A stretch of 64,000 nucleotides of DNA from Planctomycetota bacterium (GTDB taxonomy: Bacteria > Planctomycetota > UBA8742 > UBA2392), in NCBI GenBank assembly GCA_019636215.1, contig JAHBXZ010000001.1, positions 1-64,000 on the forward strand, in the 5' to 3' direction. The position numbers and the translations under genes were made by a program. Positions within the stretch are counted from its first letter, which is position 1, and every line of letters begins with the position of its first letter. Of this stretch, positions 17,656-21,082 are shown one piece after another. The notes under the pieces are model-generated. The model did not search any database, was not told the DNA's origin, and saw nothing but the letters and a program-made list of their open reading frames with translations.

Positions 17656-17730
17656 TGGCTGGCCCGCCTGGACTCGAACCAGGAAACGCAGAACCAAAAT
17701 CTGCTGTGTTACCAATTACACTACGGGCCA
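17656..17730 (-). tRNA. tRNA-Gln (anticodon TTG)
   Basis: The minus strand folds as a full cloverleaf: acceptor stem TGGCCCG/CGGGCCA with discriminator G and encoded CCA, D-arm with TTGGTA, anticodon stem GCAGA/TCTGC with loop TTTTGGT giving TTG, and T-arm CCTGG-TTCGAGT-CCAGG. It decodes CAA and, by wobble, CAG. Confidence 0.95.
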
Positions 17731-18829: not shown

Positions 18830-19246
18830 ATGTCGATGACCGTCAGCAAGCTCGCCAAAGCCGCGGGCGTGAACCTGGAAACTGTGCGCTTCTATGAACG
18901 CAAGCGCCTGCTGCCCAAGCCCGATCGCACCAGTGGCGGCCATCGCCTGTATTCGCCCGACGACATAGAGCGCCTGCGTTTCATCCAGCGGGCCAAGTTT
19001 GTCGGATTCACATTGAGGGAGATTGCGGTACTGGCGCGCCTTCGCGACGAGAGCCCGAGCGCAAGCTGCGAAGACGCGATGGATCTCGCCCGCCGCAAGG
19101 TGGCCGAGATCGATGCCAAGCTGCGCGACCTGCGCGAAATGCGAAGTGCCCTCACTTCGTTCATTGATGCCTGCCCCGAAAAAGACCTTGGCCACTGCGA
19201 GGTCATGGGCGGGCTGGCCGGCCGAAAGCGCGGCAATTCGGCTTGA
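18830..19246 (+). CDS. MerR-family metal-responsive regulator
   Basis: 138 residues, with GGGAGG upstream of the ATG. The N-terminal winged helix is classical MerR (VSKLAKAAGVNLETVRFYER, then GGHRLYSPDDIERL). The dimer helix and C-terminal loop carry Cys80, Cys115 and Cys123. The 35-residue spacing of the first two equals that of Cys82-Cys117 in Tn501 MerR; the last is 8 residues on, against 9 there. This fits sensing of a thiophilic metal such as Hg(II), though Zn, Cd or Cu cannot be excluded. Its stop codon lies inside the -35 of the operator it probably controls, so it is transcribed toward its target genes. Confidence 0.88.
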   Translation: MSMTVSKLAKAAGVNLETVRFYERKRLLPKPDRTSGGHRLYSPDDIERLRFIQRAKFVGFTLREIAVLARLRDESPSASCEDAMDLARRKVAEIDAKLRDLREMRSALTSFIDACPEKDLGHCEVMGGLAGRKRGNSA

Positions 19247-19273
19247 ATCTGTACCGCAGTACCGACCTACTGT
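19243..19273 (+). promoter_or_regulatory. mer-type promoter/operator with 19-bp spacer
   Basis: The -35 TTGAAT (19243-19248) and -10 TACTGT (19268-19273) are separated by 19 bp, the overlong spacing that MerR proteins untwist. The spacer contains GTAC-CGCA-GTAC (19251-19262), in register with the GTAC-N4-GTAC dyad of the classical mer operator. The -35 overlaps the TGA of the merR-like gene. The first downstream start is at 19307. Confidence 0.8.
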
Positions 19274-19306: not shown

Positions 19307-20206
19307 ATGCGACTGCTGCGACTTTGACTTCTGCTCCTGCCGGCAGTTCTGCTGGCGCAATCCCTTGCCGCGCACAACACACTGTACGGCTATGCGCCCC
19401 GTTCTATCTGGAACAAAGGCCTGGAGATTGAAGGCGAGAGCCACTGGGAAAGCTTCAACACATTTCGCCGGCACGACAGCACTGTTTCCAACCCGCGCGA
19501 TGTGCGCGTGGACATCTACACCCTGCAGTTTGCGGTTACGTATGGGTTGATGCGCGACTTTGCCGTGCGTGGAGTCGTGCCCGTCAGCTATGCGTCGCGC
19601 GCCAGCAAAGACGGTTCGGAAAGCTATGTCGGGCTGCGTGACATGCGCATTGGCTTCAAGTGGCGCATGTACAACCAGCCTTTTCCGGGCGGCAGCTTCC
19701 AGGGCGGGGCCTTCTGGGACATCAGCCTGCCCACCGCCCAGATGCGTGACGAACAATTCCTGACCGGCAAGCACATCAGCCTGGGCATGGAAAGTGTCGG
19801 CCTTACCACGGGCTTGACCTGGGGCTACAGCACCGAGCGCCACTACTTCTGGTGGGATGTCGCCACGCAGTTCTACACCGAGGGCCAGGGCCGGATTCAC
19901 GGGCCGGTGATCCTGCTGCACCCTGCCTATGCGGCGCGCATTTTCGCGCTGACCGACTACCGTGACTTTGACCTGATCCTGCTGATTGAAGCGGATCTTG
20001 AAATGTCCGACCGGCGCTGGTTAGGCCGGCGCAAACCCGGCGAGCGCGACTCATACAAGGTACATGCCAGTTTCGGCGTGCAGATGAACATCACAAACTA
20101 CGTCGAGATAAAGTTCGGATACGAGTATCCTGTGTACCAGTTCTATTTTTACCGCACCTTCAGCCATGACGGCGAGGCCAAGTTCAGCTTCAACTACCTG
20201 TTCTGA
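19307..20206 (+). CDS. Outer-membrane barrel-like protein with in-frame TGA in its signal peptide
   Basis: First gene after the mer-type promoter. The ATG at 19307 has AGGA 5 nt upstream. The frame reads MRLLRL, TGA at 19325-19327, then LLLLPAVLLAQSLAAH, so the stop splits an otherwise perfect signal peptide. Without it the protein has 299 codons. The mature part is rich in aromatic, alternating strands and ends in Phe (FSFNYLF), as outer-membrane barrels do. It resembles uncharacterised barrel proteins near metal-resistance genes, but no family is assigned. Options: TGA recoding (a hairpin begins 11 nt after it), a nonsense mutation, or a sequence error. The next in-frame ATG (19553) would remove the signal peptide. 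Confidence 0.7.
19339..19356 (+). other. Hairpin after in-frame TGA, bacterial SECIS-like
   Basis: A 7-bp stem (GCCGGCA pairing with TGCTGGC, one G-U pair) with a four-base loop GTTC starts 11 nt after the TGA at 19325. That is the spacing seen in E. coli fdhF, and a G opens the loop. GC-rich DNA makes chance hairpins common. Confidence 0.4.
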
Positions 20207-20655
20207 TGAAACGACTGGTTCCGATCCTTGTGCTCCTGCTTCTGGCTGCCGCCGGCTGCCAGAGTTCGCAATGGACCTGGAGCAAGCAGTGGGGGGGCGG
20301 CCAGCCCGCCCAGGTGCTGCCCGAGCATGGCCCGCAGCCGAAGCCAGAGCCGGAACCAAAGCCAGAAGAGCAGCCGCAAACGCCCAAGGACGTCATTTTC
20401 GTGCTTGGCATCAACGGCATGGACTGAGGCCAGTGAGCCACGGGCGTAATGGACGCCCTTTCATCCCAGGTTGGGATCATCGAAGGCAGAACCGACATCA
20501 CCAAGGCCGAGGTATACCTGCGCGGCAAGCCGGGTACCTTCCTGGTGGAGGCCACCATTCGCCAGCTTGTTGAAGGCGATTTCGGCTATACGCTGCGGTC
20601 GTTCACACGCCTGGAAACGGATTGGGCGGAGTATTTCAAGCCTGCCGGGCGTTGA
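20206..20655 (+). CDS. Putative selenoprotein: lipoprotein with HMA domain, UxxU motif (two in-frame TGA)
   Basis: The ATG overlaps the upstream stop (TGATG). Residues 1-18 form a lipoprotein signal ending LAAAGC, followed by a Pro/Glu/Lys-rich linker. Translation appears to end at codon 74 (TGA, 20425-20427), but the same frame stays open through a second TGA (20434-20436) to 20655, giving 149 residues. Reading TGA as Sec gives INGMD-U-GQ-U-ATGVMDAL, a heavy-metal-associated domain whose GMxCxxC cysteines are both replaced. It aligns without gaps to the Cys-containing HMA domain of the next gene (IEGMHCDGCVATVKGIL) over about 50 residues. This strongly favours recoding over two separate genes. 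It would be an outer- or inner-membrane-anchored periplasmic metal binder. Confidence 0.75.
20442..20477 (+). other. Two hairpins after the UxxU codons, candidate SECIS elements
   Basis: Hairpin 1 (20442-20458) pairs GGGCGT with ACGCCC around AATGG, starting 14 nt after the first TGA. Hairpin 2 (20463-20477) pairs ATCCCA with TGGGAT around GGT; its loop G is 33 nt past the second TGA, inside the usual 16-37 nt window for bacterial SECIS loops. Confidence 0.45.
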
Positions 20656-20674: not shown

Positions 20675-21082
20675 ATGCGTTATCTTGCGCTGTTCCTGGT
20701 TGCCCTGCTTGCGGCGGCATGCGGCCAGAATACTGCCGGCAATGCCTCCAACACCGTCATGCCGGACCTTCGCAAGGATAAGCCGTCGCCCACGGACGTG
20801 GAGCTTGTGCCGGGCAAGAATGTGGAGTCACCATTGCAGGCAACCGGGGTACAGCTGGTGACCCTGGAGATTGAAGGCATGCACTGCGACGGCTGCGTGG
20901 CCACCGTCAAGGGCATACTCGAAAAGCTGCCCGGCGTGGACAAGTGCGACGTAACGCTGGCGACTCATTCCGCGGTTGTGCGCATGAAGTCAGGCGCAAA
21001 GTTTCCCGAGGCCGATGCGAAGGACCAGCTTTCAGTGGACAACTTCACGCTCAAGAAGGCAGTGCCCACACCGACCAACTGA
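20675..21082 (+). CDS. HMA-domain lipoprotein (MerP/CopZ-like)
   Basis: 135 residues, with GGAG upstream of the ATG. A lipoprotein signal ends LLAAAC at Cys18, followed by a short linker and an HMA domain from about residue 66 with the metal-binding motif GMHCDGC. The ferredoxin-like fold of this family binds Hg(II), Cu(I) or similar soft metals through the two Cys. It is anchored facing the periplasm, where MerP also acts, but as a lipoprotein rather than free. It is the last gene of the MerR-controlled cluster, followed by a strong terminator. No merT, merA or copper ATPase is adjacent. Confidence 0.9.
   Translation: MRYLALFLVALLAAACGQNTAGNASNTVMPDLRKDKPSPTDVELVPGKNVESPLQATGVQLVTLEIEGMHCDGCVATVKGILEKLPGVDKCDVTLATHSAVVRMKSGAKFPEADAKDQLSVDNFTLKKAVPTPTN

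Follow-up and report, generated by a model that had tools for sequence, protein, structure and literature searches.

A candidate double-selenocysteine HMA-fold lipoprotein in a predicted soft-metal operon of a Planctomycetota bacterium

Results

Reading frame through two TGA codons

The stretch of DNA analysed here (the window) comprises 64,000 nucleotides of a Planctomycetota bacterium (assembly GCA_019636215.1, contig JAHBXZ010000001.1, positions 1 to 64,000) and carries on its forward strand, at 20206..20655, a gene named SelHMA in the following, which is proposed to encode an HMA-fold lipoprotein with two selenocysteine (Sec) residues. An earlier sequence-only reading had described one frame through two TGA codons with a lipoprotein signal at its beginning, and both are borne out: the frame is open from the ATG at 20206 to the terminator TGA at 20653-20655, with no stops in between other than the in-frame TGA codons at 20425..20427 (candidate Sec codon 1, U74) and 20434..20436 (candidate Sec codon 2, U77), and it starts with the lipoprotein-type signal MKRLVPILVLLLLAAAGC. 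With TGA given as U, the translation reads MKRLVPILVLLLLAAAGC...KDVIFVLGINGMD-U-GQ-U-ATGVMDAL...KPAGR and displays the motif GMD-U-GQ-U-ATG.

Residues 69-111 of SelHMA align without gaps to positions 4-46 of the Pfam HMA profile PF00403, and residues 63-104 of the protein encoded by the next gene align, likewise ungapped, to positions 1-42, which places the two TGAs on the two Cys columns. The ungapped alignment of both proteins over about 50 residues, as previously reported, thus stands by way of the profile over about 42 residues, whereas a direct BLASTP comparison of the two proteins did not find the HMA alignment. SelHMA of the window scores 18.0 bits against PF00403, under the gathering score of 24.8; among 14 of the 15 orthologues introduced below (set A3, G009 omitted), 12 match this model at E<=0.1 (best 7.5e-8). 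The AlphaFold2 model shows the order beta-alpha-beta-beta-alpha-beta, residues 61-149 having a predicted local distance difference test (pLDDT) score of about 81-95; SelHMA was classed with the HMA domains on account of this predicted fold, in which the two ligands sit where helix 1 begins. HMA domains also ranked on top in structure comparisons with Foldseek and VIA-align, the latter re-examining Foldseek matches only, so that families absent from its listing are not thereby excluded.

Conservation in related genomes

Orthologues of SelHMA were detected in 15 of 149 related genomes (the window's genome included), namely in 14 of the 16 that belong to the same family and in one more from the same order. 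At E<=0.01 a total of 29 genomes gave matches, from which the 15 with the UxxU frame were kept; the other 14 matches were weak (best 4.1e-5) and are not considered orthologues. In the two remaining genomes of the family (G005 and G010) selA is present and no SelHMA match was obtained; both assemblies are 84% complete, and owing to this the gene may be absent from them. Identity to the window's protein ranges from 38 to 76% in the other 14 orthologues.

Both TGAs occupy the same place in all 15 orthologues, within the common motif G[MIV]D-U-G-x-U-[AT]-T-G, and neither frame breaks nor unrelated codons were found there; the earlier argument that stops exactly on both Cys are no coincidence is thereby strengthened. 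Removal of the TGAs by resequencing had been a conceivable objection, but since the same codons recur in many separate metagenome-assembled genomes, sequencing error is very unlikely. In the 52 codons 3' of the second TGA the ratio of nonsynonymous to synonymous substitutions (dN/dS) lay between 0 and 0.345 in all eight pairs tested; the downstream part is therefore translated, and the region 3' of the TGAs is under purifying selection.

These data bear on the explanation that the TGAs are real stops, in which case the N-terminal half would be the product and the remainder either decayed or a separate downstream frame. Gene callers do split the gene there, and in a protein database search 14 of the 15 matches were halves of 68-91 amino acids, ending in GMD or GID or starting with MDAL (the fifteenth is annotated as Zn2+/Cd2+-exporting ATPase). 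However, the downstream half evolves under purifying selection, the frame and both TGAs are kept in 15 genomes, and the halves combine into one predicted HMA fold, so that real stops are regarded as highly improbable; decay, sequencing error and chance stops, all considered for these codons, were rejected, as was a reassignment of the code.

As to the actual terminators, TAG closes the gene in 11 of the 15 orthologues, TGA in four and TAA in none; going by these 15 stops, Sec genes possibly avoid TGA as terminator.

Searches beyond the related genomes added little. Peptide patterns translated back into DNA yielded no named relatives, the motif-spanning patterns having assumed Cys codons, while a TGA-aware DNA pattern returned 16 stretches, 14 of which belong to genomes already in the set. 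Matches in a Bacteroidetes sequence (L051) and in Sporosarcina (L058) by the latter pattern were dismissed as chance frames, and so was the only match on a viral contig (L064).

Partner HMA genes

Homologues with TGC or TGT in place of the TGAs, which the selenoprotein reading leads one to expect, were found in one respect and not in the other. For SelHMA itself, the protein search gave no full-length Cys orthologue among the 8000 candidates sharing most words that were scored, and its Cys counterparts occur in the wider HMA family only. The exchange of Cys and Sec is present in the gene that follows it at 20675..21082 on the forward strand, which encodes a second HMA lipoprotein, with a lipoprotein-type signal, a match to the Pfam HMA profile and GMHCDGC as its motif in the window. 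This gene was found in 14 genomes, G016 having none, and its motif is CxxC in nine of the 14, UxxC in four (G001, G008, G011, G014) and UxxU in one (G003). When TGC/TGT and TGA replace each other at a ligand Cys of a single gene, this is the usual sign of Sec.

A third HMA gene with UxxU, in the motif GAT-U-xx-U, exists in G006, G009 and G012 (L028:2646-3062, L029 and L030) and is a probable further double-Sec protein; of the NCBIfam models, NF041115 matches the copy in G006 best, with 34.5 bits (cut-off 95). The second HMA protein reached 38.4 bits with the MerP model TIGR02052 (cut-off 92.55) and 25.4 bits with NF045683 (cut-off 375).

Selenocysteine machinery

The machinery for Sec, demanded by the sequence-only reading, is complete with regard to the genes sought in the window's genome (an assembly of 3.99 Mb on 34 contigs, 91% complete): selA (539 bits), selB (323 bits), selC (73 bits) and selD (391 bits) all score above their cut-offs, and ARAGORN assigned selC as tRNA-SeC with anticodon tca. 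SelD is often a selenoprotein itself, and selD of this genome has an in-frame TGA of its own (GAG-U-GCK), hence it is another probable Sec gene. While selB, selC and selD were sought in the window's genome only, selA was also followed in the relatives, where every one of the 16 family genomes (G000-G015) as well as G016 has it above cut-off, and altogether 108 of the 149 do, for which reason its presence alone is no predictor of SelHMA.

Two further observations concern tRNA genes. Just 3' of the tRNA-Sec, ARAGORN reported an odd tRNA-like gene with the four-base anticodon ctgc (L008:1643-1740), which may be spurious; in the window, an ordinary tRNA gene on the reverse strand (17659-17730) was the sole Rfam match at gathering score.

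It could be argued that UGA here encodes one of the ordinary amino acids, by a change of the code or by programmed read-through, as a read-through frame alone does not reveal the residue. Against this stand the neighbouring genes, all terminated by TGA (the MerR-type regulator at 19244-19246, the channel gene at 20204-20206, the second HMA gene at 21080-21082), the use of TGG for Trp within SelHMA, the dedicated Sec machinery, and the fact that Cys is the residue exchanged in the partner gene. We see hardly any likelihood for such recoding, and consider Sec at both positions of SelHMA very likely.

SECIS-like hairpins

Downstream of the TGAs two hairpins resembling Sec insertion sequences (SECIS) were recognised, H1 at 20442..20458 and H2 (AUCCCA-GGU-UGGGAU) at 20463..20477, both on the forward strand. 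The apical loop of H1 lies 21 nucleotides after Sec codon 1, with one mismatch in the window's copy of the stem, and that of H2, which carries the loop signature of bacterial SECIS (bSECIS), 32 nucleotides after Sec codon 2. The alignment of the orthologues 3' of the first TGA has no gaps, and over the 15 sequences 99.0% of cells are paired in H1 and 87.8% in H2, or 93.8% for both together as compared with 31-56% when the partners were slid. Four pairs in H1 and H2 are changed on both sides, two of them in H1; columns 22/30, for example, show GC, AU and CG. Conserved SECIS-like hairpins with covarying pairs thus follow the TGAs, where they had been proposed to be looked for.

The bSECIS rule as set out in section 5 of PMC13188914 calls for a loop of 3-9 nucleotides beginning [N]G[G/U], a stem of at least 4 bp and a distance of 16-37 nucleotides from the UGA; it was applied here in these three terms, aside from its energy limit. 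Conforming hairpins accompany UGA1 in 12 of 15 genomes and UGA2 in all 15; they also accompany an in-frame TGA of the upstream channel gene (see below) in 11 of 12 genomes and the TGAs of the partner and third HMA genes in seven of eight cases, and occur at 35 of 105 control positions. Fisher tests against the controls gave p of 8e-4, 5e-7, 1e-4 and 4e-3, respectively, values that are not true probabilities, the sequences being related. At UGA2 the best hairpin was H2 in 13 of 15 genomes, G006 and G009 showing an overlapping alternative. The spacing of H1 suits UGA1 and that of H2 suits UGA2, from which we infer that each hairpin serves the respective codon.

Comparison with synonymous shuffles gave weaker results: the bSECIS score reached p<0.05 in five of 15 genomes for UGA1, nine of 15 for UGA2, two of 12 for the channel TGA and one of eight for the partner and third genes. 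In folding energy the shuffles were surpassed at the same threshold in 11 of 15 for H1 (the window's copy not being among these), five of 15 for H2 and five of 15 for the whole region; the control regions amounted to none and two of 15 within SelHMA and to two of 15 for each of two regions in the channel gene.

Channel gene and signal-peptide TGA

Directly upstream, at 19307..20206 on the forward strand, lies a gene for a predicted outer-membrane beta-barrel, channel-like according to AlphaFold2 and Foldseek (barrel model, mean pLDDT 86.3). The start codon of SelHMA overlaps the stop of this gene (20204-20206) in the window, while one codon separates the two in G001 and several do so in G014 and others. 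The channel gene starts with ATG CGA CTG CTG CGA CTT TGA CTT CTG and so has an in-frame TGA as codon 7 (19325..19327), which had been overlooked in the sequence-only reading. If this TGA is read as a residue, a good predicted signal peptide before AHN results, MRLLRL-U-LLLLPAVLLAQSLA|AHN, and a SECIS-like hairpin with the loop GUUC (19338..19357, forward strand) follows 18 nucleotides after it.

In 12 of 15 genomes a TGA lies after the apparent start and ahead of AH[NE]T; one of them, G016, is ambiguous because its frame opens right after the TGA. It is codon 7 in nine genomes, codon 13 in two and codon 6 in G016; no TGA was found in the signal peptide of G011 (Gly GGT at codon 7), G012 and G003. 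The tests on this codon retained G016 and excluded G012, where the upstream TGA precedes the start codon. Among database relatives of the channel protein, 21 of 28 were inspected: in P0030 and P0041 the corresponding residue, 14 positions ahead of AH, is Cys; P0026 and P0043 show a complete signal peptide that contains neither TGA nor Cys; and the other 17 start within or after the hydrophobic stretch, the 5' DNA of most of these being unseen. The place of the TGA differs between genera (also in L053, L060 and L062). The predicted mature start A-H (19370-19375) is invariant in 22 aligned sequences, and the His at or beside the new N-terminus could act as a metal ligand.

This TGA is probably a third Sec codon. 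Its rival is a TGA that ends a short leader (six codons in most genomes), with the channel re-initiated further on, or that arose by chance. Such a leader would agree with the three of 15 genomes devoid of the TGA, with the frame of G016 that opens directly 3' of it, with the channel starts that gene callers place 3' of the TGA, and with an energy excess over synonymous shuffles in only one of 12 genomes, hairpin stability being no higher than that of the shuffles in the other 11. On the other hand, the positively charged start lies 5' of the TGA, the codons after it (CTT, CTG, CTC, GTT, GTC, ATC) offer no conserved start, Cys stands at the aligned place in P0030 and P0041, and hairpins after it obey the bSECIS rule in 11 of 12 genomes. 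Leader or chance is hence thought unlikely, if still a serious competitor.

Regulator and promoter

Further upstream on the forward strand, 18830..19246 encodes a regulator of the MerR family, whose top-scoring model is TIGR02051 MerR with 128.8 bits, below the cut-off of 150.85. Its closest solved chains are 4ua1 ('Regulatory protein') and 5crl (mercuric resistance operon regulatory protein). Three Cys of the regulator are aligned to Cys of 4ua1, which we take to be the MerR of Bacillus and in which the three aligned Cys presumably bind Hg. A predicted MerR-type promoter/operator was located at 19243..19273 (forward strand), with TTGAAT, a 19-bp spacer containing a GTAC-N4-GTAC dyad, and TACTGT. 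While a sigma-70 scan with spacings of 16-18 nucleotides found no promoter, the 19-bp MerR-type spacing emerged from a pattern search: TTGAA[CT]-N19-TAnnnT occurs 14 times over both strands of all 15 loci, ten times at the expected place, in ten of the 15 genomes. MerA as a proof of a mercury role was put aside, since the best match of 313 bits lies below the cut-off of 454.45.

Discussion

The proposal of a selenoprotein at this locus is upheld by the Sec machinery, the TGAs kept in 15 of 15 orthologues, the exchange of Cys and Sec in the partner gene and the SECIS-like hairpins. Taken as a whole, we have good confidence that the conserved TGAs are decoded as Sec in a predicted membrane-anchored periplasmic protein of predicted HMA fold, and that the two selenols of this protein would probably hold a soft metal ion. 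SelHMA is likely a soft-metal binder rather than a redox protein, and which metal it binds is a matter of inference. The opposing explanation, a UxxU redox centre (diselenide or selenol), for instance in a reductase or peroxide scavenger of the periplasm built upon an HMA-like scaffold, draws on the circumstance that uncharacterised selenoproteins are mostly thought to be redox proteins and that UxxU occurs in a Prx-like family; moreover, all members of the set of orthologues (A1) share the D before the first U and the TG after the second, residues that differ from GMxCxxC. The HMA fold, the CxxC HMA partner gene, and the MerR-type regulator and promoter nevertheless indicate a metal, and we hold a redox role to be unlikely.

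In the mechanism envisaged, the MerR-family sensor would turn on the three-gene operon upon contact with a soft metal, most likely Hg(II), with Cd, Pb, Cu or Ag possible. The two HMA lipoproteins would catch the metal at the membrane and, together with the outer-membrane channel, sequester it or shift it outward. The TGA in the signal peptide of the channel would be read as the third Sec. As the signal peptide is presumably cleaved, this Sec would not be kept in the mature channel, and it might for this reason mainly serve as a control of synthesis that ties the channel and the closely following SelHMA to the supply of Sec-tRNA: ribosomes would complete the channel and proceed to SelHMA only with charged Sec-tRNA.

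The Sec of the signal peptide is the most surprising part of the finding. That it acts as a selenium gate on operon expression, with Sec used to switch translation and not as part of the mature protein, is a tentative suggestion to which we give somewhat less than an even chance. In its favour, the TGA stays within the signal peptide though its codon position shifts; against it, not all genomes share the overlap of stop and start found in the window, a point which slightly lowered our estimate.

If the reading is true, the locus would represent a conserved operon in which selenium serves as metal ligand, not as redox catalyst, and the signal-peptide TGA would represent Sec decoding as a regulatory gate that leaves the mature protein without Sec. 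The natural experiment of Cys and Sec in the partner gene would allow the advantage of Sec over Cys to be measured directly. Since SelHMA genes stand in the protein database as two halves, other such families have probably been missed likewise.

In the open-licence literature, the key papers by Haft and colleagues being outside this scope, no described counterpart of SelHMA or of the signal-peptide Sec was found. For the latter, TsoA (LULAXC, NF045695) may be a possible precedent, as its motif name in the table row suggests that Sec may adjoin the lipobox in a signal peptide; NF045695 had no match in the window's genome at E up to 10. The channel protein resembles the COG4313 channel (4rl8) and FapF (5o67) in its predicted barrel fold (Foldseek, TMq 0.65-0.70), but identity to them is just 8-13%, and it matched no Pfam or NCBIfam model (Pfam search on the last 234 residues).

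Selenium in mercury or heavy-metal transport has precedents. The Global Ocean Sampling (GOS) survey lists a selenoprotein MerP and a 'putative mercuric transport protein' (PMC2398784), and the selenoproteins tabulated in a 2026 review include a MerT-type protein and a cation ATPase (PMC13188914). SelHMA shares Sec in such a setting with the two GOS proteins and with the MerT/CopZ fusion NF045683; the GOS table gives no motif of MerP for comparison, and NF045683 is not among the model matches listed for SelHMA. The HMA metallochaperones MerP, CopZ and Atx1 are like SelHMA in predicted fold and in the place of the two ligands, whereas SelHMA differs in having Sec for both Cys, a lipid anchor and scores below the family cut-offs, and the MerP model TIGR02052 (cut-off 92.55) gave no SelHMA match at E<=1.

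Nearest in kind is NF041115, UxxU_metal_bind, given in Table 1 of PMC13188914 as a metal-binding (seleno)protein with UxxU and two Sec; the UxxU selenoproteins mentioned in the sequence-only reading, where a counterpart could not be verified, thus have a metal-binding family already listed. This family, as far as its table row and hidden Markov model tell, is a metal-binding protein with Sec at both motif residues, as is proposed for SelHMA. SelHMA of the window, at 15.6 bits, remains far below the cut-off of 95, NF041115 matching 12 of the 14 A3 members at E<=0.1 (best 1.5e-4) and other UxxU proteins of the clade with 43.8 and 34.5 bits. SelHMA further stands apart in being a lipoprotein, in its proline-rich linker, in the distinct motif G[MIV]DUGxU[AT]TG and in its place in an operon with MerR-type regulator and channel. 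It therefore appears to work like the known UxxU metal-binding kind without being a member of NF041115.
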